64,000 nt of DNA from a virus. The notes beneath the pieces are model-generated. The model searched no databases. It was not told the DNA's origin and saw only the letters and a program-made list of their open reading frames with translations. Position numbers and translations under genes: made by a program. The stretch's first letter is position 1; the number at the start of each line of letters is the position of its first letter. Positions 19,342-52,795 of this stretch are shown here, in pieces. The stretch spans positions 26,758-90,757 of the IMG/VR virus record IMGVR_UViG_3300023202_000137; one strand, given 5' to 3'.

Positions 19342-19809
19342 CTAGCCGTCGCTAGGATCGAAGTAGTCATACGTCACGGTAACCGAGTTGATGGTGACTT
19401 CATCGGCGTTGTTATCCCAATCCCCTGCAACGAAGTTGGTGGGCCATGCTTTGTTGAGCTGCCACCGTCGAAGCTCGGAACCGTCACGATCTTGCTGCAC
19501 AACATCTGCGTCGCGCTTGTACTCTTCATCGACCAAACCGGTACCGGTCGCAGCGTCCGCCACTTCCTTGAACCAATTGTACAGGTCGAGATCTTCAGTG
19601 GCCCCACGCCCCAGGGTCACGTCGGAGAACGTCACACGCCCAGGACTCTTGTTGGGGATGATTGCGCCACCCTCGTAGTATTCGACCTTCGCCGCCTCTG
19701 CGGACAGCTCGCTCGCCGTTTGGAACCCGGCTCGGTCGAATCCGTCAACATCCACAATGAACTTGAACTTCTTGTGGAAGCTACGGGGATTTCCTTGCAG
19801 TGAAGGCAT
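19342..19809 (-). CDS. tail tube protein (T4 gp19-like)
   Basis: A 155-residue protein of the contractile-tail tube family. Landmarks are [19 protein letters not shown] at residues 11-29, VEYYEGG, '[21 protein letters not shown]' (residues 57-77) and a closing beta strand [13 protein letters not shown]. It directly follows the sheath gene with a 17-base gap and is present in many copies in the virion. Confidence 0.93.
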
Positions 19810-19826
19810 GGATCAACTCCTTGTGG

Positions 19827-21425
19827 CTACGCTGCCAGTTCCTCTTCCAGCGCACGCGTGTCTTGCGTCACCTTCAGGATGATGAACTCGGCAGGTTTGT
19901 TGGTTGCCAGCCCAATCCGCACGATGAGCTGCCCAGCAAACACTACCGAGGGTGGGTTGAGTGCGTCCGACGCGTCGATGAAGAACGCGGTTGCTGGATT
20001 CTGAGATCTGAATGCTTCGTTCCTCATCTGGGTAATGAGAAACGCGTTGATGGTACGTCGCACCCGCGCTCGCAATTGGGGGGTATTGTTCGAATGCTTC
20101 GCGAACAGAAGCCCAATCTTCAACGAGGTCTCGATGAAGATCACCCCACGCCGCTCTGCTACGAACGGGAAGTTGCCATCCCCCTTGAGGGTACGGCTCC
20201 CGTCGATGTGACGAGGGGTTCCAGTGAACGCAGTCAGAGGGTTGATGCGCTTGGGAAACACGATGTCCCGCTTGCGCTCGTCGAGAACTTGGTGTTGGGG
20301 CAACCCGTCCGGGTCGTCCTCGAATCCGACGCAGCCAAAGATGACTCCACGCTCGACACCCGCAGGGGACTGGTAGATTCCACCGGGTCGGCTGCTGTCG
20401 ATTCGAGCATACACCCCGACAATGAAGCCGGAAGGCGGTACCGTGATGGTATCACCGCTACCGAAGACTGCAGCGCTCGGATTGACGATCTTGATTCGAG
20501 GCCAGTAGATGGCCGCGAACTCACTTAGCCCAAGCAACGCAGCGGTGCTCTCGACGTAGGTTACGATAGCTGCAGCGTTGTTCGACGAGGGCGGGTCGAG
20601 TACCGCAAAGCAAGTTCCGTCGCGAGTCACTTCGCAATAGGTCACCATCGCGTTGTGGATGCCGGAGGTCGCTTGCCCGGGGACGATCAGCAGGGTGATG
20701 TTCTGGATGATATCCAGAGCACGTAGCCCAGTTGGACCTGCGTCGCTTCCGATGAAGTCGGTATCAGCGAGGGAAGTCAGGCCGTCGTCGCCACTGGTCA
20801 GGGAAAAGGTACCGTTGACCGGTCGGTCTTGCAGCGGGGTTCCCCCTGCGTCTTGATCGGTCACACTGATCAGGTTCGATCCTGCGCTGCCATTGACGAC
20901 AGTCTCGGCAAAGTTTGGAGACGTGTCATCCATGGTGAGGTTCGGGAAAACCTCTACGACAATACCGCCGTCGATCACGAACAGGTCGAACTCGGCAGCT
21001 TCACCGCTGGTTGCATCTGCGACTTCAACGTCGAGATCGTTAGCGTATGCCCCTGGTGTTTTGCCATCCACCTGCAGGGTGTTGTTCGGTCCGGTTGCGT
21101 CCTGGAGTGTGACTGTACCTACAACTGCGGTTGCGGTTCCGGGGTCTGTGATGTCCGTGTAGTGAACCGTACGAACGATCCACATCTGCTCGCCGCCATT
21201 GAGAAAAAACCCAAAGGCTGCCGTGGCTACGTCAGACGCTGTCGTGAAGCCACCAAAGACACGAACGTACTCATCGAAGCTGGTCACGAGTGTTGGAACA
21301 CCAACCGGACCTCGCTCCGTGATACCAACGACACCGACCACCGCAGTTGGCAGTGCAGGGATCGAACGGATCCGAGGTTCTTCTTCGATAATTACGATCT
21401 TGGAAGCGAGCAGTGCTTGGGACAT
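19827..21425 (-). CDS. contractile tail sheath protein
   Basis: A 532-residue sheath protein. The N-terminal arm includes VIIEEEPRIRSIPALPTAVV followed by VGITERGPVGVP, typical for sheath proteins. The C-terminal domain holds ALTAFTGTPRHIDGSRTLKG, FVAERRGVIFIETSLKIGL, RARVRRTINAFLITQMRNEA and FFIDASDALNPP. The inserted middle part (about 100-300) is beta-rich and surface-exposed in relatives. Confidence 0.95.
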   Translation of the reverse strand: MSQALLASKIVIIEEEPRIRSIPALPTAVVGVVGITERGPVGVPTLVTSFDEYVRVFGGFTTASDVATAAFGFFLNGGEQMWIVRTVHYTDITDPGTATAVVGTVTLQDATGPNNTLQVDGKTPGAYANDLDVEVADATSGEAAEFDLFVIDGGIVVEVFPNLTMDDTSPNFAETVVNGSAGSNLISVTDQDAGGTPLQDRPVNGTFSLTSGDDGLTSLADTDFIGSDAGPTGLRALDIIQNITLLIVPGQATSGIHNAMVTYCEVTRDGTCFAVLDPPSSNNAAAIVTYVESTAALLGLSEFAAIYWPRIKIVNPSAAVFGSGDTITVPPSGFIVGVYARIDSSRPGGIYQSPAGVERGVIFGCVGFEDDPDGLPQHQVLDERKRDIVFPKRINPLTAFTGTPRHIDGSRTLKGDGNFPFVAERRGVIFIETSLKIGLLFAKHSNNTPQLRARVRRTINAFLITQMRNEAFRSQNPATAFFIDASDALNPPSVVFAGQLIVRIGLATNKPAEFIILKVTQDTRALEEELAA

Positions 21426-21448
21426 TTTCGATTGGCCTCCGGTTCAGG

Positions 21449-21799
21449 TTAGCTCGACGCCTTGTCTGATTCCGCTTCGGCCCTGTCACGCCGCTTCGGT
21501 TGCGCTGCTGGTTTCGGCTTCGCCTTCTTTTTCCGCAGAGCTTTCATGTCGAGTTGCTTTTTGACTTCCGGGGCCTCCATTGCGGCCTCGGGAACGGAGA
21601 CTTCTGCCCCTGGGGGGAACCAAATCGCGCTTCCGTAATAACGATCAACGCGCCTGGTCTTCCGCTCGCCCGTACCTGTGTCATGGTGTAGCAGAGTTTG
21701 CTTGCCCTTGACTACTGGCAACTTCGCCTTCTCGCAGAGATCCGCTGGTATATTGCAGACGATCATATGGTTGGTCGTGTTTTCCAGCGTCTCACTCAT
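21449..21799 (-). CDS. hypothetical protein before sheath
   Basis: A 116-residue protein with a small folded N-terminal half (a 'HMIVCNIPADLCEKAKLPVV' region, then RRVDRYYGSAIWFPPGAEVS) and a Lys/Arg/Ala-rich disordered tail of about 45 residues. Not recognised. By position it may be a tail-assembly or sheath-initiation factor. Confidence 0.65.
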   Translation of the reverse strand: MSETLENTTNHMIVCNIPADLCEKAKLPVVKGKQTLLHHDTGTGERKTRRVDRYYGSAIWFPPGAEVSVPEAAMEAPEVKKQLDMKALRKKKAKPKPAAQPKRRDRAEAESDKASS

Positions 21800-21806
21800 T
21801 GCTACC

Positions 21807-24707
21807 TCACAAGGGCTCGATTTCTAGCGTCACGCATCCGTCGTCCGCGTCCAGCTCGAACGACTCTTGCTCCACTGGTAGTTCTATATCAAACCCACGG
21901 ATTACGAAAGAACCCTCAAAATGCCGCACGTTTGACCGGTTGGCCCTTGTGCGCACTGAGAAATCTGCCGTCACGTCCATCTCAAACCTGCAGACCCCGG
22001 CCCCAGGGTCATCTGGGTCGCGGTCCATCTCAAAAAACTTGTTCAGCTCAAAGAATCGCTCGATTTCCCCCAGCATGTCCAGCATTACAGCCGTTTTGTC
22101 TGCAGCCCCAACGAGGGTGAAAGTGAGGTCTACAGTACGGGGCACCTGGGGTGCCGAGAATTTTCTGCCGTCCTGTAGGTATTGTCGCTCGTTTACAGAG
22201 TAGAAGCGGTTGTTGGTCAGGTCTGGCCCTTGGACGATTACCGAGGGCAGCTCGGAGAGTTTGATCTGATCTAGCATGTCGTCCACGGTGTCGTCGTAGT
22301 CGATGTCCACGGTCATGCTGACGTTGGGATGAAACTGACGCTTGATGGTTCGCAGTAGCTCACGCACCCCTCGCTTCAGATTGGTAGAGGCTCCAAACTT
22401 TGGGCGTCGGTACTGGAAAACTTCAGGCAAAACGAGCACGTCACCAACTCCGCTCAACTCCCCCCCTGTCTCGGGGTCAAGTGCGACGATTCTGATATCC
22501 GATGGAGGGATTGGACTCACATCAGCATTGCCTCGGTAGGGCGGGACAACTGCGGTCATCAGTTCTTCAGTGAGCACACGTACGTCGGGGGAGGGCTCAC
22601 CATTGAACTCTACTCGCATTGTTCGAGGGTAGGTGCCGCCAACAAAACCAGGGGGCGGATCTGGTGGAAGACGAAACCCAGACCCAGTAAATACAGCAAG
22701 GTACCCACCGCTTGCAGGTGAGCCAACCTCACCCGTTGGGTTGTTTGGAACATCTACGCCCCCAGGAGGAACCGTGATGATCGGCAAAACCGAAGGCGCG
22801 ACGAATATCGACGTGCCTTGGATGATCTGACCAGAAAGCGCGAGCGGTAGACGATTCAGAGTCGTGGCGACAAAGGCTGACACTGCATCAATCTGCCCCT
22901 GAACAGAGGGCAGCAAGCGAAGACTTCCAGACAGTGCGCTTTGTCCGTCGATGTTTCCGCCGTCAATGGCCTCGGTCTCAACCATTGTACCTTGGAAAGT
23001 CGACACACCGTCGAGGGAGGCCTGCATTTGAACGATCTCCGCAAGCAGTCCCTCAAACCCCCCAGTGCTCCCAAGGGCTCCCTGCACCGCGAGTATCAGT
23101 CCAACCATGGCGTCGAGCGATGAGTTGCCGTCAACCTGTCCCTGAATAGCTCGTGCAACTGCGATGTCTGCCTGCAGCTCGCTCGTTGCTTCGATGGATC
23201 CAGGGGCGAGACTCAACTGGGGAAACGAAAGCGTACCGCTCAAATCCCCAGAGCCAACAATCGGGAAGGGGATCAGAACCATCGGGGTAAGGTTCATGTT
23301 TGCTTGAAGAGAAGAGACCCCCTCGATATCGGCAGTGATATCGTTTTCGCTTAGCAGCATGTTCCCTGCGATGTCCGATTGACCATCGACTGATCCATCG
23401 ACATTCAGCAGTGCTTCGAGTCGTGCTGCCTCTAGCGTTGAGGTCCCATCCATCTGCGCATTGATGTTGTCGAACGTGCGCAGGTTTGCGTCGAGGCTCC
23501 CAGATCCAGACACTAGCGCGCTCATGGCGAGGGGCGTTCTCTGCAGGGATGGGGCCCGTATGTCGCTGAACCCTACAACCTCACTTTCCATAACCGGGCC
23601 AGGGACGTAGGTCACATCGAGTCGGGGTTCTGCAAAGCTCAGGTTGTCCCAGGCTGCGAGCTGACGGTTACCAGAGGAACCACCCTGGACAATCAAAAAC
23701 ATTGGGTCGTTCGCAACGTAGTCGATGCTAGATGCGGACTTTTGGATCAGAGCACTGATGTCCGGGGAGACGAGTTGAGTCCCAGGTACAGTGACTCCTA
23801 TGTCCCAAGGGACCAGGGGTCCGTTGTTGATAGCTGGGCTCCAAACCTCGACCGCGAGATCAGCGCCTGCTGGGTAGTTCTGGAAGTCAACACCTTCCCC
23901 GGTACCGAAGTGCCACATCTCACCCTCGTCTTCGGGTGTAATGATGAATCCACTTCCTATTTCTGCTTGGATAAAATCAGTCGCGTTTGCCCTGAACGTT
24001 CCCCGGAGGACGATCACAATGCTCTGATTCTGAAGAAGCTCGATTCGATTGACTCCAGAGAAATCGAATCGAATGGCTGTCGAGCCCGTTGGAACAGTGT
24101 TTGCGGGCAGTGCCAGGCTGGTGGCCAATGGAGCACCAGTCGGAGATCCTTCAAGCGGTCCTGGTGTGAGGTCTGCAGCATAGATCTCTAGGAACAAATC
24201 TCCAGATGGGTTTCCTATTCGGCGAAGGTCCATGTCTACAGACCCAAGCTGAAAGGACTGCTCCAAAGTAATCCGCTGCCCAAGCTGTTGGTGTCGTGCA
24301 GGAGAGGAGTCGCGTCGAAGCTCCCAGAACTGGCTAGAAGCGTCTCGTGTGTCTTGCTGACTAACATCGCTCACGTCGTTTACGTTGAGCTTCATGTCGC
24401 CAAAGATCTGTCGGCTCCAACCAGTCCTGTTCAGCGGATCCCATTTCCCATCCGGCAGAGCGAGTGCAATGTTTGCGTTTTGAGTGCCTAACCTGTTTGC
24501 AGTGGCAACCATGGTGAGTGTTGCGCTTTGGATGTGTGCGGCTCGTGGGATATTTAGACCGCGAAATACCATCGCTGCGTTGGAGGTGATTCCAAAGAAA
24601 ACGTTTCCAACTGCTAGGTTAACGGCAGCACTGTTTTGCCTGTTCTGGAACCCGATAGACGATGTGTCGTCCGTAGAGCGGGAGATCGTACTGAATACGC
24701 TGGTCAT
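21807..24707 (-). CDS. large tail-associated protein with tandem 'GxSxL' repeats
   Basis: A 966-residue protein with four visible parts. Residues 1-370 are beta-sandwich-like. Residues 395-640 hold about ten degenerate repeats of 25-35 residues with the core (D/V)G-x-S-x-L-x-A-x-(L/M). Residues 640-760 resemble an IPT/TIG Ig-like domain (FTGSGFRLPPD, YPRTMRVEFNGEPSPD). Residues 765-966 are a compact alpha/beta domain (LKRGVRELLRTIKRQF through VRHFEGSFVIRGFDIELPV). The last domain may bind the tail or neck, and the repeats may form a projecting stalk. Function is inferred from layout and from the position just before the sheath. Confidence 0.75.
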   Translation of the reverse strand: MTSVFSTISRSTDDTSSIGFQNRQNSAAVNLAVGNVFFGITSNAAMVFRGLNIPRAAHIQSATLTMVATANRLGTQNANIALALPDGKWDPLNRTGWSRQIFGDMKLNVNDVSDVSQQDTRDASSQFWELRRDSSPARHQQLGQRITLEQSFQLGSVDMDLRRIGNPSGDLFLEIYAADLTPGPLEGSPTGAPLATSLALPANTVPTGSTAIRFDFSGVNRIELLQNQSIVIVLRGTFRANATDFIQAEIGSGFIITPEDEGEMWHFGTGEGVDFQNYPAGADLAVEVWSPAINNGPLVPWDIGVTVPGTQLVSPDISALIQKSASSIDYVANDPMFLIVQGGSSGNRQLAAWDNLSFAEPRLDVTYVPGPVMESEVVGFSDIRAPSLQRTPLAMSALVSGSGSLDANLRTFDNINAQMDGTSTLEAARLEALLNVDGSVDGQSDIAGNMLLSENDITADIEGVSSLQANMNLTPMVLIPFPIVGSGDLSGTLSFPQLSLAPGSIEATSELQADIAVARAIQGQVDGNSSLDAMVGLILAVQGALGSTGGFEGLLAEIVQMQASLDGVSTFQGTMVETEAIDGGNIDGQSALSGSLRLLPSVQGQIDAVSAFVATTLNRLPLALSGQIIQGTSIFVAPSVLPIITVPPGGVDVPNNPTGEVGSPASGGYLAVFTGSGFRLPPDPPPGFVGGTYPRTMRVEFNGEPSPDVRVLTEELMTAVVPPYRGNADVSPIPPSDIRIVALDPETGGELSGVGDVLVLPEVFQYRRPKFGASTNLKRGVRELLRTIKRQFHPNVSMTVDIDYDDTVDDMLDQIKLSELPSVIVQGPDLTNNRFYSVNERQYLQDGRKFSAPQVPRTVDLTFTLVGAADKTAVMLDMLGEIERFFELNKFFEMDRDPDDPGAGVCRFEMDVTADFSVRTRANRSNVRHFEGSFVIRGFDIELPVEQESFELDADDGCVTLEIEPL

Positions 24708-25144
24708 CTAAGGTGAATCCTCACCGTTTGGATTTCAGATTCAGGATCTACAGACTTCGCCTCAAACCCTTCTGCGGCAATCTCCATCTCCGCTTCGACT
24801 TCCGGGGACAGCGGAAACGAGGGGACAAGATCTCCCAGCAACTCTGCAACTCCGTCCTCCAGGCTTTGAAACTCTACGTTGTGGAACAACCCACCGCCGT
24901 AGATGTATCGAGTGACCGGATGAGCGATGGCGAAGAGGATTGCGTAGTCCTCATAAGGGGTTTCCGTCAGGTCCGGGTGTAGCTTCATCCATTTCTGGAT
25001 GATTGCTCCATAGCACTTTGCGATGTCCGACTGCTGATTGGTCGGCTCATAGGGCATCGTACGTATGTCGATCAACAAGACTGGCGTGGGCGTGTCCGTG
25101 AGCCCAAGCGTCTCTTCCAGAACTGGGAGCGACGTAAAAGACAT
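24704..25144 (-). CDS. hypothetical neck/tail-region protein
   Basis: A 146-residue soluble acidic protein. Not recognised. It lies between the tail-completion cluster and the large repeat protein, and overlaps the latter by 4 bases, so a neck or tail-terminator role is possible. No diagnostic motif is seen. Confidence 0.65.
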   Translation of the reverse strand: MSFTSLPVLEETLGLTDTPTPVLLIDIRTMPYEPTNQQSDIAKCYGAIIQKWMKLHPDLTETPYEDYAILFAIAHPVTRYIYGGGLFHNVEFQSLEDGVAELLGDLVPSFPLSPEVEAEMEIAAEGFEAKSVDPESEIQTVRIHLR

Positions 25145-25171
25145 GCCCCCATACTACCGGGGTGGTGGTGG

Positions 25172-32021: not shown

Positions 32022-35000
32022 GCAGCCTCCTTAACAGGTTTTCGAAGTGCGGACCCTCCGATAGAAAACCCTGTGAGATCACCTCGTTTTATCGCTCGCC
32101 AGAGTGCGTCGTCAAGAACGCGAACAGCGAGCAGCCACGTGCCCTTGCGGACCTTCGTTCCGTTCACGTTCATCTCCACTGGGGCAACGTAGCTTTCCAA
32201 GATCTTGACCTTGCTGTTGATCACCCCCTTGTGCATCAGTCCGATATTACGGAACTTCTCCATGAATTTGTGGGCGCTCTCTCGAATATCCTCTGCGCTG
32301 TAGATGTCCTTCTGGGTGTCGGGATCGAGCGGCGCGCCTTCCGTACCATCGTTTGGCTCCAGCACCACGCCAAGCACGAAGCGTTCGTCGTCGGTAGACT
32401 TCTCGGTCTTCAGCAATGGCAGCTTTTTCTGCAGGACCTCGTCAAACGCCTTCTGATCCTCTGTCTGTGCATTACCCTTGAACACTGCGCAAAGCTCATT
32501 TCCACCGAACGTGTAGCTCGCATCGGCTGCTTTGATGATAGCACCGTTCGACTCGGGAGACTCATTTGCCCAGACCAGCGCCTCCTGCAGCTCGATATCC
32601 GTACGGACCAATTGCGAGGGGGTCAGGTACACCTGCTCTGACTTCTGCAACAAATGCTCGACCTTGCGGCGTCGCTCGATATATCGCTTCGCCGTCACAT
32701 TGCCTGCACTGGGGAGGAACAGTGCGTCATGAATACCTAGGTAAGTGGTCGCGCGATCACCAGAGGTAATAAATCCGTCGAGCACAAAGTCCCCGCCCAG
32801 CTTTCGTACCTCGTTCTCGATGTCGCATCGAAGCTCCTCGCGCTTCTCGGTCTGTCGCTTCAGGATTCCAATCACACCCTTAACCCCAGCGGTCAGGGTG
32901 ATGGTTCGGAACGATCCCTCTTTGAACTCTCCGGGCTCTCGCTGACGGAACCGATAGGAATCCTCGGTTTCATCAACCTTGCCCGAAGTGAACTCATGCT
33001 CTTTCAACCAGCGTCGAGCATCGGCTTCGCTCTTGAAACGCTTTTTGTCCAAGATCAGTGTTTGCAGCGTCGTGCTTTGCTTCATGAAGATGCGCACGCG
33101 CTCGGCTCGCTTTTGCACGGAGACTTCCAGCCCATCGAGGCGTGGTTCCACGAGCATCCCACCTTGCAACGTGGTCGATGTCGCAACCTTCTGCAGAAGC
33201 TCCTCGCCGCTTGCGTACTCTGAACCCATCATGGGTTCGTAGAGTGCGAACGGTCGTAGCTGACGACGGTCCAGAGAGGGATCTGTCGAATTCGCCCAGA
33301 CCTGGAGCCCCTGACGTACCGGGACTTGCTTGATCACGGAGTAAGATTCGACGGGCTCCAACTCGGCTTTCGCCAATTCGTACTCTGCGAAGCGTTTGGA
33401 CAACTCCCCTCTGTTCTGGACTTCGTTGATGTGGCCGGGGGCAAAGCTCGCAGCACAGTCGTTGCACTCGACAACAGACAAAGAGCGACCGCCGTCCATG
33501 TGGCTTTTGCCGGTCTTGCGAACATTGAGGCTACCGCAAGGCGGGCATTCTACATGGCTGAGGTCTTCCCCGCGACGCAAGAAAACCTGCGCCGACGCTC
33601 CGCGACTCGACTTGCTAATCTCCTGGGACTCCTCTGCGACGAGAACCCAATGCCTTGATCCCGGCTCCTCTGCCTTGAGCGTGTAGATGCCTCGCATCTT
33701 TCCACGGAACCGCAGTCGGATCTCATCCTCACTTTTGCTCAAGAACTCCACAAACCCAGAGTCCACGTTTCGTACCCAGCTCTCCATGCTCTTGGTAGCA
33801 TTGAGAATCTCGCCACCGATTTGCTCGGCAGGCTTTGCCTGACCCTCGAACTTCATGAGCTTTGTGCTCTTGAGCGTGCGGCAATCCCCTGCGATGCGCT
33901 CGTGCCCCTGCAAGGGGTCGCGGTCTAGCGCCCAGGCTTGCTTTCCAATCACAAGATGCCACCGCTCTCGCGTGGGGCTGTCACCCTCTGCCGATTTCCA
34001 TTGCTGCCAAGCAATTCCGTAGGGCTTCGATGTCTCTTTGTCCTTCTGTGTTCCTGTGTCGAGGTATATTTTATGTAGGACCCGCTGGAAGTCCCCGTTA
34101 ACGACTTTCACGTTCGAGTCAGTGAAATGTCCACGCTTCACCAACTCGTCGCGCATTGCGCGAGCTTCCTCCCCACGAGCCTCCCAGTATCGCAAGGAAC
34201 TTGGCACGAGTCGTTCGAGCGAAACAGGAATTCCAGAGTACCCGTCAGGCGGCATGACTCTGGCCTTTGCTGCACGCTCGGTGAGCACGAGTGGGCGAAG
34301 GTCCGTCTGCCATTGGGACCACCACCGGGGTTTCTCGGTTTTTTGCAGCGAGAACAGCAACCGCCCCTGGAACTCTGGGTCGCCCGTAAAAAAATACTCG
34401 TGAGCCGATGGTGTCTGCAGGCCGTACTCGACCTTTAGGTCTGGATCGGTCACCCGAGATAGTACTGCGGGCTCCTCTGCAGTTGCCCCAACCTCACCTG
34501 GCTGGACCTTCTCGTGATCGAGATTTAGCCAGGCCATGGGGCTCTGCCCCTTCGGGGTAGCAGCAACCCCCTCATTCCAATCACGCTCAAAGTAAGAGCC
34601 GCTCTTTTGAAATCGTCGAGCAAATCGCCTGGCCTCCCTTACGTCTTTGACTGTCGGAACCCGACCGGGCTGGTGGTTGTCAATGGTCCACCCCACCGTC
34701 ACGTCGTCGAGCTGCAACCGGAGGTCGCCGTGCATCCCCTTGCCTATAAAATGGTACTGATAGACGGCCTGGCGCTTCCCCCTAGACTTCGGAACCAAGC
34801 ACAGCGCCTCGGCCTTAGTCACAGTGTCGATGCACTGCTGACCGTGAACCTCAGCGTCACTGGCCTGGAGGATTCGAAACTCTCCATCCCCGGGCCGTAC
34901 CTCGTGAGACTTGGGCACCAGCCATAGGTCGTACAGGCCCACCCTATTTTCAGGACCCCCGATGTCTCCACCCTCCGCTGCGGCGGTTCGACCAAACATT

Positions 35001-37294
35001 CCCTCGGGAACAAGGGATTCTATGTGAGGGGAAAGACTGGGCCCGCTCAATAGAAGGTCGATGTCACCTTTGGTGACTCCCCAGTTCGCGAGACCGCCGA
35101 CAACTGACACCGCATCACGCTCCAGAAGCACGGGTCGTAGCTGGGTCGTCACTTGATCTAGCTGAATTTCTCCGCTGTGCTCTCGGGAATTCTTTGAGTG
35201 ATGCGAGCGGCCAAACTCATCCGACGCCAGTCGCATCACTTCAGACAATGCACCCAGACCGTTGGTAACTCCCTTGCCAAGCGACTTGATAGCGTCCTGT
35301 GGAAGTTTCGACAGATGTCCGTGGAGATCTTTGACCACCTGCAGAAGATTGTGTTCCCCACACTTCGTCAGCTTTCCGGTGTTAACCGCCGAGAGATCTT
35401 TCTTCAAAGCCTCCGCGCGTCTGGGGAACGAATCAAGAAACGACACGATTGGTTGCTTGCCCTGCATGCCCGACAGCAAAGAGACGCTGCGCTTGCAGAA
35501 GCTCGGCGCGAGTACAGCGAGCTGATGTGCTAGCGACTGTGCAGACTTCAGCGATTCAACTTCATCGTCGTTCAGCTCTATGGCTTCGGGCTCTGGGTCT
35601 TTGAACTTCTCTACTTTTGAAACGCGGTACCCCCAAAGAACTTTGGATTTCGGCCACCGCTTCTCGCGCTCCTCATCAGTCAACCCATGCTCGGTCACCG
35701 TCTCGGCAAACTTCCATGTCGAGATCTTCTCTGCGGCCTCAACTTCGATGATTCCGTAGTCGGTGCTTCCGTCGGTAACCAGCACCGGGCCTTCGATGCT
35801 GTGCTTCTTTGCTTCGAGAAACATCGACACATCACCGTCGATGATCTTACGAGCGTGGTCCGGTGTCGTCTCGAATTCCAGAGCTGCTCGTCGTCGCCTT
35901 TCATCGCTTTCACGCAACGAGTGTCTTGCCTCTGCACCAGCGTCGATGAACAAATCGCTGGTGCCGAACCAATTGATCGGACCGTCCACCACCTGGCACT
36001 CGCCAACCGACCCGGTCTCCGCTCGAAGATAGAACCGGCAATTGCCGCACACCCGCTCCCGGTCGGCAGACTGCCCTAGCTCTGGGACATAATCGGCCTC
36101 GTCTTGATTGAATTTCCTACCGTTTTCCTCCACCCGCCTGATCGTCTCGTCGGCCTCCCAGCCACGGCTATTTTGGGGGGCTTGCTTGGTCGCGCGATCT
36201 CGATCTTCCTCGATGGCCTTTCGGATGTGCTCGGTTTCGGGCCCGACGTACACAAGCAACGGACTCGTGTAGCTCTTGGCTAGCTCAACGACCTCGCGAT
36301 CCATGGTATCGAACATCTCGTCGTAGCCAAGCATCGCCTTTTGCATGGGGAGTATCTCCCCCTTCTCTAGCGACTTATTTATATGGCTGTTGAGTTTCTG
36401 GAAAAACCGTTTGTAGGTTCGGATCGAAAAACGCAGTCGGTCTTCCCGCTTCAGGAAGTCAAATCCCTTGGCTTGCGCAGAGTCTCGAATTTCCTTTGGA
36501 ACTTTGTCTTTCGCGAAACCTGATACACCTGGCCAACCGTTCTTTCGAGTCGTGAGCACTTCGACGCGACCGTAGGCAGGGCCAAAGGCCCACGAGGTAA
36601 AATCAAACGAGTCAACGTGCTTCCAGAACTCTGCGTACCGCCAACTTCGGCGACCAACACCCAATAGATGCAAGTAGGTGTGGTTGTGTGTCTTGCAGAG
36701 ATCTGTACGCTTTCGACATACCTCGATAAGCTGGGTGTTCGTTGCGCTCCGATAGCTTCCCTTGCCTTTTCCCCCTTCAGAGCTTCCCCCTTTGCCGTCC
36801 TTCTTTTCTTCTTTGTCTTTGCGCGACAGCCAAAACGAATTGACCATGCCACCCCAGGCAACTTTCTTCCCGGTGCGGTAGTATTGCTTCGCGCGGTCCG
36901 TGATCTTTGTTGGGATGTGGTCAACATATATGGGGGCAACACCCAACTTCACTAGGGCTTCAAAGTTTTCGTCGGTCTTCTTTGGGCTCGACGGAACGTC
37001 GATGGGCATGAACTCTTCAACAAGTGACTTGTGAGACTTCACAAAGTCGGCGTACTCTTCGATTGATACCTTTCCCCCATGCACTGCTGCAGAAAACGCA
37101 CCCGAGTCCAGCAACACACGCACGCCGTTTAGCTCCTTGGGTAACCCTTTCTTGAAGTAGTGGTAGGAAACGAGCATCTCTCGGATGCCCTCTTCCTTGA
37201 GTATCTGGATCTGATCTTTGGCTACGGCGACGAAATACGAGTGCGGTCGCGTGCTAGGGCTTCCCGGAAGTTTGCTTACTCGTTGTCGTGGCAT
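32018..37294 (-). CDS. multidomain fusion: DpdA/TGT-like, NTase-like, LigD-PE-like, ligase-like, XkdF prohead protease
   Basis: A 1758-residue protein with several recognisable parts. Residues 15-300 are a DpdA/TGT-like barrel (VRVLLDSGAFS at 58-68, KKVAWGGMV at 143-151, YLHLLGVGRRSW at 207-218, DSFDFTSWAFG at 228-238). Residues 415-440 are a cysteine knuckle (CGNC...C). Residues 480-565 may be ASCH/PUA-like. Residues 715-800 look like a nucleotidyltransferase (VVGGLANWGVTKGDIDLLL). Residues 845-930 look like the LigD phosphoesterase (MHGDLRLQL). A zinc ribbon (CPPC...CNDC) spans 1250-1280. Residues 1345-1610 are ATP-ligase-like with EPRLDG at 1383-1388 (Lys to Arg), FVLDG at 1503-1507 and a phage domain (1418-1478) inserted. 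Residues 1637-1750 are XkdF protease (VLGVVLEPND, FRNIGLMHKG, GDLTGFSIGG). It overlaps both neighbours and precedes scaffold and capsid. Individual calls rest on motifs only. Confidence 0.85.
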   Translation of the reverse strand: MPRQRVSKLPGSPSTRPHSYFVAVAKDQIQILKEEGIREMLVSYHYFKKGLPKELNGVRVLLDSGAFSAAVHGGKVSIEEYADFVKSHKSLVEEFMPIDVPSSPKKTDENFEALVKLGVAPIYVDHIPTKITDRAKQYYRTGKKVAWGGMVNSFWLSRKDKEEKKDGKGGSSEGGKGKGSYRSATNTQLIEVCRKRTDLCKTHNHTYLHLLGVGRRSWRYAEFWKHVDSFDFTSWAFGPAYGRVEVLTTRKNGWPGVSGFAKDKVPKEIRDSAQAKGFDFLKREDRLRFSIRTYKRFFQKLNSHINKSLEKGEILPMQKAMLGYDEMFDTMDREVVELAKSYTSPLLVYVGPETEHIRKAIEEDRDRATKQAPQNSRGWEADETIRRVEENGRKFNQDEADYVPELGQSADRERVCGNCRFYLRAETGSVGECQVVDGPINWFGTSDLFIDAGAEARHSLRESDERRRRAALEFETTPDHARKIIDGDVSMFLEAKKHSIEGPVLVTDGSTDYGIIEVEAAEKISTWKFAETVTEHGLTDEEREKRWPKSKVLWGYRVSKVEKFKDPEPEAIELNDDEVESLKSAQSLAHQLAVLAPSFCKRSVSLLSGMQGKQPIVSFLDSFPRRAEALKKDLSAVNTGKLTKCGEHNLLQVVKDLHGHLSKLPQDAIKSLGKGVTNGLGALSEVMRLASDEFGRSHHSKNSREHSGEIQLDQVTTQLRPVLLERDAVSVVGGLANWGVTKGDIDLLLSGPSLSPHIESLVPEGMFGRTAAAEGGDIGGPENRVGLYDLWLVPKSHEVRPGDGEFRILQASDAEVHGQQCIDTVTKAEALCLVPKSRGKRQAVYQYHFIGKGMHGDLRLQLDDVTVGWTIDNHQPGRVPTVKDVREARRFARRFQKSGSYFERDWNEGVAATPKGQSPMAWLNLDHEKVQPGEVGATAEEPAVLSRVTDPDLKVEYGLQTPSAHEYFFTGDPEFQGRLLFSLQKTEKPRWWSQWQTDLRPLVLTERAAKARVMPPDGYSGIPVSLERLVPSSLRYWEARGEEARAMRDELVKRGHFTDSNVKVVNGDFQRVLHKIYLDTGTQKDKETSKPYGIAWQQWKSAEGDSPTRERWHLVIGKQAWALDRDPLQGHERIAGDCRTLKSTKLMKFEGQAKPAEQIGGEILNATKSMESWVRNVDSGFVEFLSKSEDEIRLRFRGKMRGIYTLKAEEPGSRHWVLVAEESQEISKSSRGASAQVFLRRGEDLSHVECPPCGSLNVRKTGKSHMDGGRSLSVVECNDCAASFAPGHINEVQNRGELSKRFAEYELAKAELEPVESYSVIKQVPVRQGLQVWANSTDPSLDRRQLRPFALYEPMMGSEYASGEELLQKVATSTTLQGGMLVEPRLDGLEVSVQKRAERVRIFMKQSTTLQTLILDKKRFKSEADARRWLKEHEFTSGKVDETEDSYRFRQREPGEFKEGSFRTITLTAGVKGVIGILKRQTEKREELRCDIENEVRKLGGDFVLDGFITSGDRATTYLGIHDALFLPSAGNVTAKRYIERRRKVEHLLQKSEQVYLTPSQLVRTDIELQEALVWANESPESNGAIIKAADASYTFGGNELCAVFKGNAQTEDQKAFDEVLQKKLPLLKTEKSTDDERFVLGVVLEPNDGTEGAPLDPDTQKDIYSAEDIRESAHKFMEKFRNIGLMHKGVINSKVKILESYVAPVEMNVNGTKVRKGTWLLAVRVLDDALWRAIKRGDLTGFSIGGSALRKPVKEAA

Positions 37295-38006: not shown

Positions 38007-38294
38007 TTACTTCACTCGGTGGGCTATTTCGCGAGCTGTCAGAAAAAACAAAGGCCGCTCAACGATGAATTCCAAAACAATTGCCACCCACAAGTCCACC
38101 CCTAGGTACTCAACGAGCAGGTAAAGAATAGGCGCACGCACCAGCAGCCACGGGGATGAGAGTGGATACCACACCAAAAGCTGCTTCATGGTCGAGCTTC
38201 CACTCCAGGTTCCGCCACGAACAAATAGATAGGCAACCAGCATTGCAACAAACAAGGCAGCAGTAATGCCCTGGATAATCACTGCGGCGCTCAT
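38007..38294 (-). CDS. small membrane protein next to the molybdoenzyme
   Basis: A 95-residue protein with two or three hydrophobic helices (residues 4-25, 40-62 and 66-85). Its single His does not support haem binding of the YedZ/MsrQ type. It overlaps the FolE2 gene by 4 bases and directly precedes the molybdoenzyme, so a functional link to that block is possible but unproven. Confidence 0.65.
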   Translation of the reverse strand: MSAAVIIQGITAALFVAMLVAYLFVRGGTWSGSSTMKQLLVWYPLSSPWLLVRAPILYLLVEYLGVDLWVAIVLEFIVERPLFFLTAREIAHRVK

Positions 38295-39205
38295 GCCAAA
38301 TCGTTTTCTAGCGTAGTCACGATGTCGTGTGCCAGGTGGCTGTCTTCCGATACCGCCTTGACCTTGCAGTTGATGACTTTGCCGTCGGGGACAAACTCTG
38401 CAGTGATGCCTCGCAGAATCTTCTGTACCCGGACAGCACCGTCCTCGGTAAAGGTAGGGCCAGCGTAGGACTTCAGCACCTGCACGACTTCATCTGGGAT
38501 CTTCATGTTCGACATAACCGGCACGAGTCGGCCAGTCACCTCACGCATGATGGGGGCGAACACCACGGGTGCGTCAGTGATCAACTCAATGTCGATGTGC
38601 GTACGCTGCGTGTGGGACTGCTTGCCGTCTGTTTCAAAAAGAACGAATGGGCAAACCGTGAACACTGTCGTTCGAAGGTGGAAAAGGTAGTGGCCCTGTT
38701 TTAGATCTGGATCAATCCTGTCGCTCAGCTCGTAACCAATGCCGATGCTCCAAGGCAGTGTTGAGGGGATGCCAGTGCAATGGGCTTTGAGCTTCGAAGA
38801 AATCTTTGAGCGCGCCATGACACGGAACTTGGAGCCATGGTGCGCGTCACGCAGATTCTCTGCGGCGAGCTTTGCCCACTCCCATGCCGGTACCGCTTCG
38901 TCGGCTTTCTCTGTCTTGAGAGTATCCCGTGCAAACTCCATCGAGGATATCATTCGATTCATGTGCGCTTTGACTCTGGTTACCCGCGCCAGGATATCGC
39001 ACTTTGGCATAGTGAACAGGTGGGCCTCTTTGCCGTCGTACACCTTGAACAGACCTGACAGGTAGTAGTTCACCATGTCTACGTCGAGCGGGTAATCGAC
39101 TGGGATCTCCGGTCCGTCCTCATCCCAACCCGTGCCGTATGACTCTACGGCTTCTTTCCATTGGGCAACGAGCTTGCCGTACTTCTCTTCCTGCTCCTTA
39201 TCCAT
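38291..39205 (-). CDS. folE2: GTP cyclohydrolase IB (FolE2-type)
   Basis: A 304-residue T-fold enzyme converting GTP to 7,8-dihydroneopterin triphosphate, the first step to folate, pterins and 7-deazaguanines. Family landmarks are KAHMNRM at residues 79-85 (family GTHMSR), VCPFVLFETDGKQSHTQR at 184-201 (family CPCSKxIS...AHNQR, with Cys185 and His198 as likely metal ligands), AGPTFTEDGAVRVQKIL at 248-264 (family NPxFVED), and SEDSHLAHD at 286-294 (family ESIHNH). The second Cys of CPC is Phe here. A phage-borne FolE2 inside the head operon, next to a DpdA-like domain, is notable. Confidence 0.85.
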   Translation of the reverse strand: MDKEQEEKYGKLVAQWKEAVESYGTGWDEDGPEIPVDYPLDVDMVNYYLSGLFKVYDGKEAHLFTMPKCDILARVTRVKAHMNRMISSMEFARDTLKTEKADEAVPAWEWAKLAAENLRDAHHGSKFRVMARSKISSKLKAHCTGIPSTLPWSIGIGYELSDRIDPDLKQGHYLFHLRTTVFTVCPFVLFETDGKQSHTQRTHIDIELITDAPVVFAPIMREVTGRLVPVMSNMKIPDEVVQVLKSYAGPTFTEDGAVRVQKILRGITAEFVPDGKVINCKVKAVSEDSHLAHDIVTTLENDLA

Positions 39206-39698
39206 TCTGATCCTCTGTCTCTGGCCTGCTACGAAGCCATGCCTCCACAGCGTCTCGGTCCTCGCGGGCAGCGACGCTCACGCCATCCAACGTCCAGCTA
39301 TCCCAAGACAGCACGGGTTTCTTGTTGTCGAGGGCATAGGCCATCTCCTGCAGAGTCCCGAGTCGACCCGGCAAGGCTAGAACAATGTCAGCCGACAGTG
39401 GTGTGATCATGTTGCGAGCAAAGCCAATGCCCGTCGCGATCACGATGTCGATATGGTCGTTTGCGTCTTTGATACAGGAGCCCGGAAGAACTCCAATAGA
39501 AACGCCGCCCGCAGCTTTTGCACCACGGGCGGCGTGGCTCATTACACCTGATAGTCCACCGGTCAGAACATGGTAGCCCGCTTCAACAGCCGCCGCCCCA
39601 GCGTAAAACGCCATGTCGGCAACCTCATCAGACCACTTTGGGCCCCAACCTTTGGTGCCGATGATTGCACACACCGGCACTCGTTCCTTTGAGGGCAT
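39198..39698 (-). CDS. LOG/SLOG-superfamily protein (TIGR00725-like)
   Basis: A 166-residue Rossmann-like protein. VCAIIGTKGWGP opens the fold. TGGLSGVMSHAARGAKAAGG is the nucleotide-binding loop, and LPGRLGTLQEM matches the PGGxGTxxE signature of LOG-type nucleotide phosphoribohydrolases, with GFARNM before it. SLOG proteins bind or cleave nucleotide ligands. The ATG at 39698 is chosen because GGAGGG lies 5 bases upstream. It overlaps the FolE2 gene by 8 bases. Whether it is catalytic here is unknown. Confidence 0.82.
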   Translation of the reverse strand: MPSKERVPVCAIIGTKGWGPKWSDEVADMAFYAGAAAVEAGYHVLTGGLSGVMSHAARGAKAAGGVSIGVLPGSCIKDANDHIDIVIATGIGFARNMITPLSADIVLALPGRLGTLQEMAYALDNKKPVLSWDSWTLDGVSVAAREDRDAVEAWLRSRPETEDQNG

Positions 39699-39749
39699 CT
39701 GCCCCTCCATCGCCAACTCTAGTGTTGGCCTGTACCTGTTGCGCTGAGT

Positions 39750-50899: not shown

Positions 50900-51469
50900 C
50901 TATACTTCATCCCCCCAGGCGGTCCAGCCTTGGCCTTCACTCCGGGCGAACATCTCCAGATATGGTCCGGGGCTTGTCTTCTCGATCAAGTCGTACGATT
51001 CCTGGGGCTTCTGACTATGCTTCTTTGTTCGCTCTGCAAAGATGACACTGGGTGGGGCCTTGTCTGGTTTCATGAAGTCGCCACGAACCCCAAAGAGCAT
51101 CAGCTCATGGGAACCTCGAAGGTACTGCCCTAGTCCGATCTGAACTGCCGACCTCGCGACTTGGATTGTGGTCAGCCCGCCCTCTTTGGGGCCGTACACC
51201 CCACGCTCCCAGAGCTTCACCCAGGCAACGTTGGTCACGTACCGAAATCCAATTTGCTCCATGAGCCACATGCCTTTTGCAAGGTAGTTGTTTGTCACCC
51301 ACATCCAGCAGTGCGCGCTAGGAGCAATGGTTCCCCACACCCCAGAGTCAAAGATCGCTTTGGGCATCTTTCGTACGGGCATCACCTTGTAGTGGCGGTC
51401 GGCTCCGCGCTTTATCTTACCCGCCCCTCGTTCCGGCCACGGTGGGTCGAGCATCACGCATGAATTCAT
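50900..51469 (-). CDS. MT-A70-family adenine-N6 methyltransferase
   Basis: A 189-residue protein with the catalytic DPPW (residues 8-11). FRYVTNVAWVKLWERGVYG, GLGQYLRGSHELMLFGVRG and the C-terminal HSQKPQESYDLIEKTSPGPY...EMFARSEGQGW are all hallmark MT-A70 segments. It methylates adenine in DNA (or RNA), probably to evade host restriction. The ATG at 51469 overlaps the previous stop as ATGA and has GGAAAG upstream; a longer start at 51499 is less likely. Confidence 0.93.
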   Translation of the reverse strand: MNSCVMLDPPWPERGAGKIKRGADRHYKVMPVRKMPKAIFDSGVWGTIAPSAHCWMWVTNNYLAKGMWLMEQIGFRYVTNVAWVKLWERGVYGPKEGGLTTIQVARSAVQIGLGQYLRGSHELMLFGVRGDFMKPDKAPPSVIFAERTKKHSQKPQESYDLIEKTSPGPYLEMFARSEGQGWTAWGDEV

Positions 51470-51681
51470 GATTCTTTCCTTTTCAACCTCGCCGACCACT
51501 TCCGAAACTTGTTGGCCGCTGCGAGTATTTCTTTCTTGGCTTGGGCCTCGGTCCAGTTGAGGTTCATCGGCCTATCGCAGTTGCCGCAGAGAAACTCACT
51601 GTCATCGAGTTTATCTGCCAGGGCTTCTGCGTCTCGCGCCATGGAGTCGAGTTGGTTCGCAATCCTTAATGCCTTGGTCAT
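51466..51681 (-). CDS. small CxxC protein
   Basis: A 71-residue helical protein with one CGNC motif near residue 32. Its start overlaps the YkgJ-like stop (ATGA) and its stop overlaps the methyltransferase start, so the three are translationally coupled. Function unknown. Confidence 0.7.
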   Translation of the reverse strand: MTKALRIANQLDSMARDAEALADKLDDSEFLCGNCDRPMNLNWTEAQAKKEILAAANKFRKWSARLKRKES

Positions 51682-52325
51682 CGGTACCTGCCCCAGCGTT
51701 CTAGCCATGCCCCAAGGTCGTAGGCACCGTGCATAGCCAAGAGCCGTAGCCCCTCTTTCACTTGGCCGTTCAAGATCATCAAGGCAATCGGGATGAGATA
51801 GGGCATGGGGGAGTAGGCAGTAGGCAGCCCAACTTCTGCAGAAAGCCTGTCTAGGTCTGGCAGTATTCTCTCGAAGTATTTCGTAGCGTCGCTGACCAGC
51901 ACGCGCTTGCCTGATCCACCTCCGCAATCCTCTGCAGGGCTGAAAACGTAGTAGGCTCTGCAGGCATGGGGGCGGAATGCGTAGACCATGCACTCATCCC
52001 TCTCTTGGTCGAGAAAGGCGCAGGGTCGTTTTGCGTCGAACCAGTTCGTGGTTGTCATTTTTGGATCTTGAACCAGTATCGCGTCCTCAATGATTTGATC
52101 TTTCTTTTCTTCTGCCCACTCTTCAGCCTTCCCAAGCCTGTCCAACTCCAACAGAGCGCCCATTGCCTCGGGGAGCGAAGCAGTCACCGTCATGTAGCAG
52201 CAGTGTGTGCAACCCTTCCGGCAGCTTGGCCCTCGCCCAAGTTCCTCTTGGGATCTTTTCAAGCGACCCTGGGCGAACTCATCCACCGTGTTGTTTAGAA
52301 CTCTCAGCTTTGCTTTGAAGGTCAT
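51678..52325 (-). CDS. YkgJ-family cysteine-cluster protein
   Basis: A 215-residue protein. Cys35, Cys39, Cys42 and Cys43 (SCRKGCTHCC) together with PCAFLDQERDECMVYAFRPH and ACRAYY form the metal-binding pattern of the YkgJ CxxxCxxCC family (zinc or iron-sulfur). The family's role is unknown. It heads the coupled set YkgJ, small CxxC, MT-A70, Nudix. Confidence 0.88.
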   Translation of the reverse strand: MTFKAKLRVLNNTVDEFAQGRLKRSQEELGRGPSCRKGCTHCCYMTVTASLPEAMGALLELDRLGKAEEWAEEKKDQIIEDAILVQDPKMTTTNWFDAKRPCAFLDQERDECMVYAFRPHACRAYYVFSPAEDCGGGSGKRVLVSDATKYFERILPDLDRLSAEVGLPTAYSPMPYLIPIALMILNGQVKEGLRLLAMHGAYDLGAWLERWGRYR

Positions 52326-52343
52326 TGCCTCCCTCGCTTTCTT

Positions 52344-52795
52344 TTATGGGAACGCTAGGTGCTGCATCCCATCTAAAAAGTTCCCCGCGTTTTTTTTGCC
52401 GACTCTGAAGTATTGAGGCCCGGAAGGGTCGGGTCGCACGGATGAGTTGGGCATCGCAACCCCCTGTGGTGCTTGCTTGTTTGTCAGCCAGTCCCCCCAT
52501 TGTTTGAAGAAAAATGGGGTGTTGGTTTCGAGGCAGGCGTCTCGGATGCATTGGGCCCATGCTGGGTTCATCACCAGCGATAATCCAGTCGACCTTCGGA
52601 TGCCCTGGGTTCCACATCCACTCGCACTGGGAGGTGAGCGTCGTCGCGTGTTCTGCGCTTCTATGGCGGACGTGTTCGAGGGCAGGCGGGACCTGGATTG
52701 TAGAGCCGCCACTTCTGGGGGATCAACTCATCAACTAGCTCGATGCGCTTGGTTAGAAGCAGCCAGTCCAGGTGTGGGGTCTGCTCAACCAGGTC
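52344..52795 (-). pseudogene. decayed Gp37/Gp68 (DUF5131-like) gene
   Basis: Recognisable pieces of the Gp37/Gp68 family appear in order but in three different frames. TPHLDWLLLTKRIELVDELI lies near 52730-52790, VDWIIAGDE near 52570-52600, and PAWAQCIRDACLETNTPFFF, KQWGDW and YFRVGKKNAGNFLDGMQHLA down to 52344. The usual 'GGESGPxARPM' stretch is missing between the second and third pieces, and the N-terminal third of the family is absent. This looks like a deletion plus frameshifts, not a working gene. An assembly error could explain one shift but not the missing parts. Confidence 0.75.

Follow-up and report, generated by a model that had tools for sequence, protein, structure and literature searches.

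Gene content and layout of the locus

The DNA analysed here (the window, 64,000 nucleotides) comprises bases 26758-90757 of a 90,757-bp virus record, which is linear and may be incomplete. According to profile matches, the gene content is that of a contractile-tailed phage, with tail sheath, tube, baseplate, capsid and portal genes on the minus strand. The terminase gene lies just left of the window. The phage is of marine type and carries a cassette that encodes, in operon order, a LOG-type protein, a FolE2-like protein, a small membrane protein (TM) and a sulfite-oxidase-fold molybdoenzyme (SUOX). These are followed on the same strand by a 1758-aa protein in which a DpdA-like domain is fused to an XkdF-type head maturation protease (Table 1). 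The successive junctions of these genes measure -8, -4, 0 and -41 bases. Since the genes overlap or abut, they are probably read as one transcript, and a single operon is likely; the metabolic genes appear to sit inside the head-gene operon of the phage. That the cassette genes might be chance reading frames was dropped as an explanation, the E-values and the conservation being too strong.

Both reading frames named in the original prediction, for a FolE2-like and a LOG-type protein, are real and lie where it had placed them. It had also set a DpdA-like domain beside FolE2; the domain is genuine but not adjacent, as two genes that had gone unnamed, those of the membrane protein and the molybdoenzyme, intervene.

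Elsewhere in the window, positions 52279-52712 hold what looks like the decayed C-terminal end of a DUF5131 protein (phage Gp37/Gp68), split over two frames. To the left of the window (L004; G000 19394-25146), genes for a MoxR ATPase (bpMoxR, 20931-22109) and a vWA protein (19394-20929) lie beside GGACT and amidoligase genes; MoxR and vWA are a possible AAA-vWA chaperone pair, and the set may serve peptide tagging.

Table 1. Features of the cassette and of the adjoining fusion gene (window positions).
Feature	Size or residues	Position	Strand	Best support
LOG-type / SLOG cluster 4 protein	166 aa	39198-39698	-	PF18306, E 6.4e-34
FolE2 / GCYH-IB-like protein, divergent subfamily	304 aa	38291-39205	-	PF02649, E 3.5e-8
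Small membrane protein, phage-specific cassette member	95 aa	38007-38294	-	GtrA/DPMS TM match, 0.0015, below cut-off
Cytosolic sulfite-oxidase-fold molybdoenzyme, SUOX-like	250 aa	37254-38006	-	PF00174, E 1.8e-29
Fusion: DpdA-like N-terminus, ANMV-1-ligase-like middle, XkdF head-protease C-terminus	1758 aa	32018-37294	-	
DpdA-like (TGT superfamily) region of fusion	aa 32-419	36038-37201	-	phrog_887, 1.5e-21
ANMV-1 'ATP-dependent DNA ligase'-like region of fusion	aa 709-1218	33641-35170	-	sequence similarity
XkdF-type head maturation protease domain of fusion	aa 1624-1755	32030-32425	-	PF14550, 2.2e-25

The FolE2-like protein passes the curated cut-off of PF02649 (Pfam GCHY-1; 33.7 bits against 25) and retains the FolE2 motifs CP...HxQR, KxPDE and PxFxED, which bears out the identity first assigned to it. 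In the alignment, C185, H198, E239 and E254 correspond to C147, H159, E201 and E216 of the Neisseria gonorrhoeae enzyme (NgFolE2), which we take to be metal and substrate residues. As regards the C-terminal motif ESxH...H (E243 and H246 of NgFolE2), E287-D-S-H290 fits by eye, automatic alignment places H293 opposite H246, and hhalign stops short of the motif. None of the NCBIfam equivalog cut-offs was reached (FolE2, 16.8 against 215 bits; GCYH-IV, 23.5 against 468; MptA, 22.2 against 220). The AlphaFold model is weak (pLDDT 48), and its best PDB matches were all GCYH-IB, with E-values no better than 0.02.

The reading frame of the LOG-type protein spans 39198-39716(-) and opens at TTG 39716; the true start is most likely ATG 39698, given the GGAGGGG upstream of it and its agreement with the start of the bacterial homologue described below. 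The PF18306 match confirms the assignment as LOG-type. A match to TIGR00725 (4.2e-28) stayed under the cut-off, and the NCBIfam equivalog for the cytokinin-type LOG phosphoribohydrolase was clearly missed (38.4 against 300 bits). The nucleotide-cleaving activity proposed at the outset is possible, but the closest solved relatives are molybdenum-cofactor (Moco) carrier proteins (PDB 6y01, 4.8e-24; 2iz5, 4.9e-19). The motif LPGRxGTLQE is nearer to LPGGxGTxxE of the LOG nucleosidases than to CGIGLGT or VGMGPGT of the carriers.

SUOX scores 103 bits on PF00174, against a cut-off of 24, and retains the Mo-ligating Cys89 (DFHCITGWS) together with 45 columns that show no variation between it and SUOX-like proteins of archaea and bacteria. 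It reached none of the NCBIfam equivalogs for MsrP and sulfite dehydrogenase (SorA, SorT, SoxC), the best score being 41.8 against 207 bits. No molybdopterin synthesis genes were found in the phage, so that Moco would be host-supplied. On an Aeromonas plasmid (L007 3980-5321) and on other plasmids, a ferredoxin reductase gene often stands directly after ordinary SUOX-like genes; this reductase is likely the redox partner of the ordinary bacterial SUOX-like proteins, a partner missing in the phages.

In the fusion protein, homology to DpdA extends over aa ~32-245 (hhalign against four phage DpdAs, 98.4%, E 5.9e-15), and tblastn matched the DpdA-like domain to annotated phage DpdA/TGT proteins. 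On alignment, D63, H209 and D231 correspond to D72, H196 and D215 of the DpdA of Nonagvirus ChristophMerian; the conserved His196 of DpdA has been noted before (PMC6884629). The AlphaFold model of this part was unusable (pLDDT 33). The XkdF domain also matches phrog_13242 (2.1e-40) and phrog_3017 (1.9e-34). Similarity to the ANMV-1 virus protein covers aa 709-792 and aa 848-1218, the latter at 29% identity, and the middle of the fusion holds a zinc-ribbon-like Cys cluster. The 1758-aa protein matched 465 INPHARED records, and none of the listed matches joined the DpdA and XkdF ends. As a joined match should rank near the top, the fusion seems to be at least uncommon. A viral scan with the 1758-aa protein gave no relative. 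We treat the fusion as a head-module protein separate from the cassette.

Relatives of the cassette in a second phage and in a bacterium

Homologues of the cassette occur on a second phage contig of 5 kb (L002), of which another contig (L005) is a near-identical partial copy. In L002, and partly in L005, the order FolE2, TM, SUOX is kept and the genes overlap; the L002 proteins are 65, 56 and 58% identical, respectively, to those of the window phage, the membrane protein being encoded at L002:518-799. The L002 contig starts inside FolE2, and any LOG gene ahead of it would fall outside the contig. BLASTP found no similarity of the terminase and portal of L002/L005 to those of the window phage. 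Between terminase and portal, on the opposite strand, these contigs hold a NUDIX-like ORF (L002 3686-4147(-); L005 2796-3257(-)).

A genome scan with SUOX, from which 80 relatives were kept, gave as the best of them a protein at 65% identity on a contig (L017) of the MAG Deltaproteobacteria bacterium UBA796; the next one stood at 42%. SUOX lies there directly after a homologous FolE2 (63% identical to the phage protein), which overlaps it by 4 bases. A homologous LOG (L017:4480-4959, 54%) ends a divergent operon 3 kb from this pair. At the other 79 SUOX loci, neither LOG nor FolE2 was found as a neighbour. The FolE2 homologue scores 32.1 bits on PF02649. The membrane protein had no significant match in this MAG, and the genes after the cassette differ between phage and bacterium. 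The bacterial cluster also encodes a hydantoinase/dihydropyrimidinase-like protein, an FmdA-like amidase (formamidase), a RutB-like isochorismatase-fold hydrolase and a gentisate-dioxygenase-like bicupin. Neither dpdA nor que genes were found in it, and the remainder of the contig reads as bacterial chromosome. These enzymes would open the rings of cyclic amides and split ureido or amide groups, a composition that seems to resemble purine/pyrimidine-type catabolism. A PLP aminotransferase gene stands beside the cluster (L017 3317-4492; best NCBIfam match guanitoxin GntC, below cut-off) and is at most a candidate member of the pathway.

The subfamily of FolE2 is very rare, with one occurrence in the ~1,240 genomes sampled. 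Its profile matched 1 of 379 genomes of the bacterium's phylum and none of ~860 genomes from three other phyla, sets that held no positive control. A pattern-based scan of genomes for FolE2 only (TTVFTVCP, VMSNMKI) found nothing, the patterns being such that they miss the bacterial variant. By tblastn, the phage FolE2 gave no match in annotated phages and only weak Neisseria FolE2 matches in plasmids. A viral scan with LOG gave no relative, and two phage-collection matches to LOG and SUOX were set aside as short, unverified faecal contigs without annotation. The grouping comprises three FolE2 sequences and one cellular cluster, on one MAG contig, which may be due to misbinning or represent an unusual island.

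The bacterial cluster bears on several explanations of the cassette. A plain boost of folate or pterin synthesis, in which FolE2 would raise 7,8-dihydroneopterin triphosphate for folate and hence for nucleotide synthesis in infection, perhaps as a Zn-independent replacement of the host FolE, agrees with the retained active-site residues. It agrees also with the single PF02649 protein of the MAG, which is the FolE2 of this cluster and, with no PF01227 protein found, the only GCYH-I there; it may therefore be an ordinary folate enzyme in that bacterium. We consider this boost rather improbable for the phage, as it accounts neither for the hydantoinase and amidase neighbours nor for the constant association of FolE2 with SUOX, seen in a bacterium as well as in two phage lineages; moreover, no further folate gene turned up in the record, and the score on the FolE2 equivalog is far under its cut-off.

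Another explanation centres on the molybdenum cofactor. SUOX-family enzymes use the mono-pterin form of the cofactor, and a LOG-type carrier might load SUOX with it; SUOX would then be a stress or detoxification reductase/oxidase, with FolE2 loosely linked. The structural relatives of LOG favour such a role, as do the common operon of LOG and SUOX in the phage and their common cluster in the bacterium. The bacterial carrier RoMCP, moreover, binds Moco and selects it against MGD/MCD (PMC7470044). Against this stand the nucleosidase-like motif of LOG, the lack of a LOG neighbour at all of the 79 other SUOX loci, and FolE2, which is the gene directly coupled to SUOX in the bacterium and would have no part to play; on the whole, the explanation is unlikely.

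A role in counter-defence, whereby the SLOG domain would bind or cleave nucleotide immune signals and the neighbouring genes would be incidental, appears highly improbable. Viral SLOG domains have indeed been proposed to act against cADPR-type signalling, but they belong mostly to a YpsA-like clade (PMC9503650), whereas the phage LOG is of cluster 4 and has its homologue in a metabolic cluster of a bacterium, alongside homologues of FolE2 and SUOX.

Possible DNA modification or guanine/pterin chemistry

The original prediction had suggested that FolE2, LOG and the DpdA-like domain might serve a 7-deazaguanine DNA modification route, although QueD, QueE and QueC were missing, and had named a cofactor system as a vaguer alternative. 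Among the ~100 predicted proteins of the 90,757-bp record, no Pfam match was found to QueC, QueD/PTPS, QueE/radical-SAM, FolE (PF01227) or TGT, and the reported lack of the three Que proteins therefore extends to the whole record. In four known phage clusters (Nonagvirus ChristophMerian, Microcystis phage Me-ZS1, mycobacteriophage CRB2 and Pseudomonas phage PSASB_03), dpdA lies beside folE (FolE family), queD and queC in all four, queE is visible in three, and FolE2 is found in none.

In the deazaguanine route, FolE2 would form H2NTP, host QueD, QueE and QueC would convert it to preQ0, and the DpdA-like domain, freed by the head protease, would put preQ0 or one of its derivatives in the place of DNA guanine; SUOX could be responsible for a further change to the base. 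The conserved D63, H209 and D231, which include the histidine of DpdA position 196, and the location of the domain directly downstream of the cassette in the same operon are in line with this, and phages with dpdA alone exist (PMC6884629). Nevertheless, we judge the route unlikely. The record lacks the enzymes of the intermediate steps (queC, queD, queE, an amidotransferase and folE), even if these genes could lie elsewhere, the record being a fragment, and the dpdA clusters compared use FolE with queD and queC. The decisive point is what FolE2 travels with: it is paired with SUOX and LOG, also in a bacterium where dpdA is not among the neighbours. Modification of DNA by the DpdA-like domain, with preQ0 supplied by the host, may occur all the same.

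The two functions could also be joined. FolE2 would open the ring, the molybdoenzyme would finish a new guanine- or pterin-derived base and LOG would free it from the ribotide, after which the DpdA-like domain would insert it into phage DNA during head assembly. Such a QueDEC-independent hypermodification, borrowed from a bacterial N-heterocycle pathway, is in our estimate very unlikely. As a separate observation, window 50900-51499(-) carries a DPPW motif and is most likely the MT-A70-type adenine methyltransferase match; the phage DNA may therefore be N6-methyladenine-modified.

For the cassette itself, undescribed guanine/pterin chemistry is more likely than 7-deazaguanine DNA modification, and of the two original suggestions the cofactor system fits better. 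The explanation that we favour, and that we regard as probable, if only just, is that LOG, FolE2, TM and SUOX form an auxiliary metabolic cassette homologous to part of a bacterial cluster that resembles an N-heterocycle (guanine/pterin-type) pathway. We infer the substrate and all catalytic steps. Given its conserved active-site residues, the FolE2-like enzyme would act on GTP or a similar guanine nucleotide, whose imidazole ring it would open to yield a pterin-type product. The conserved cysteine and the gene coupling suggest that SUOX would contribute a two-electron step to this pathway. LOG would either free the base from the nucleotide or carry Moco to SUOX, and the phage-specific membrane protein may, more speculatively, anchor an enzyme or supply electrons. 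The phage would retain the upstream part of the bacterial pathway and add the membrane protein to it.

The grouping defines a rare FolE2 subfamily that is accompanied, in two phage lineages and one bacterium, by a LOG/Moco-carrier-like protein and a molybdoenzyme, partners other than those that GTP cyclohydrolases of phages usually have. Should the cluster encode a guanine/pterin pathway, phages have taken up a part of one for which we found no description in the literature. The gene set is small enough for direct expression and assay.

Comparison with known systems

No published description of FolE2, a sulfite oxidase and a hydantoinase together was found in the literature. Like the hydantoin, pyrimidine and purine catabolic clusters (allantoinase, RutB, formamidase), the bacterial cluster contains hydantoinase-, RutB- and FmdA-like enzymes; it differs from them in the addition of FolE2, SUOX, LOG and the gentisate-dioxygenase-like bicupin, and of these the phage has only LOG, FolE2 and SUOX.

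The FolE2-like protein belongs to the same T-fold family as FolE2/GTP cyclohydrolase IB (PF02649; N. gonorrhoeae 3d2o and 5k95) and shares the aligned active-site residues, whereas its long N-terminal half looks unrelated and its gene partners are SUOX and LOG. With the Moco carrier proteins (RoMCP, 6y01; CrMCP, 2iz5) and the LOG phosphoribohydrolases, the phage LOG shares the SLOG cluster 4/TIGR00725-like fold and sequence; however, its mixed motif and its score below the TIGR00725 cut-off fit neither class decisively. The phage SUOX has the catalytic Cys motif and the invariant residues of the cytosolic 'sulfite oxidase-like oxidoreductase' (PF00174). Bacterial oxidoreductases of this family usually stand beside a ferredoxin reductase, while the phage gene lacks that neighbour and is paired with FolE2. 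The SUOX proteins of the two phages and of the bacterium (about 64-65% identity between window phage and bacterium) form a distinct clade at 56-65% identity, with at most 42% to all other kept matches.

As in the phage 7-deazaguanine clusters, a DpdA homologue and a GTP cyclohydrolase are encoded in one genome. In those clusters, however, dpdA stands free beside folE, queD and queC; in the window phage it is joined to a head protease, and FolE2 is part of a different set of genes.
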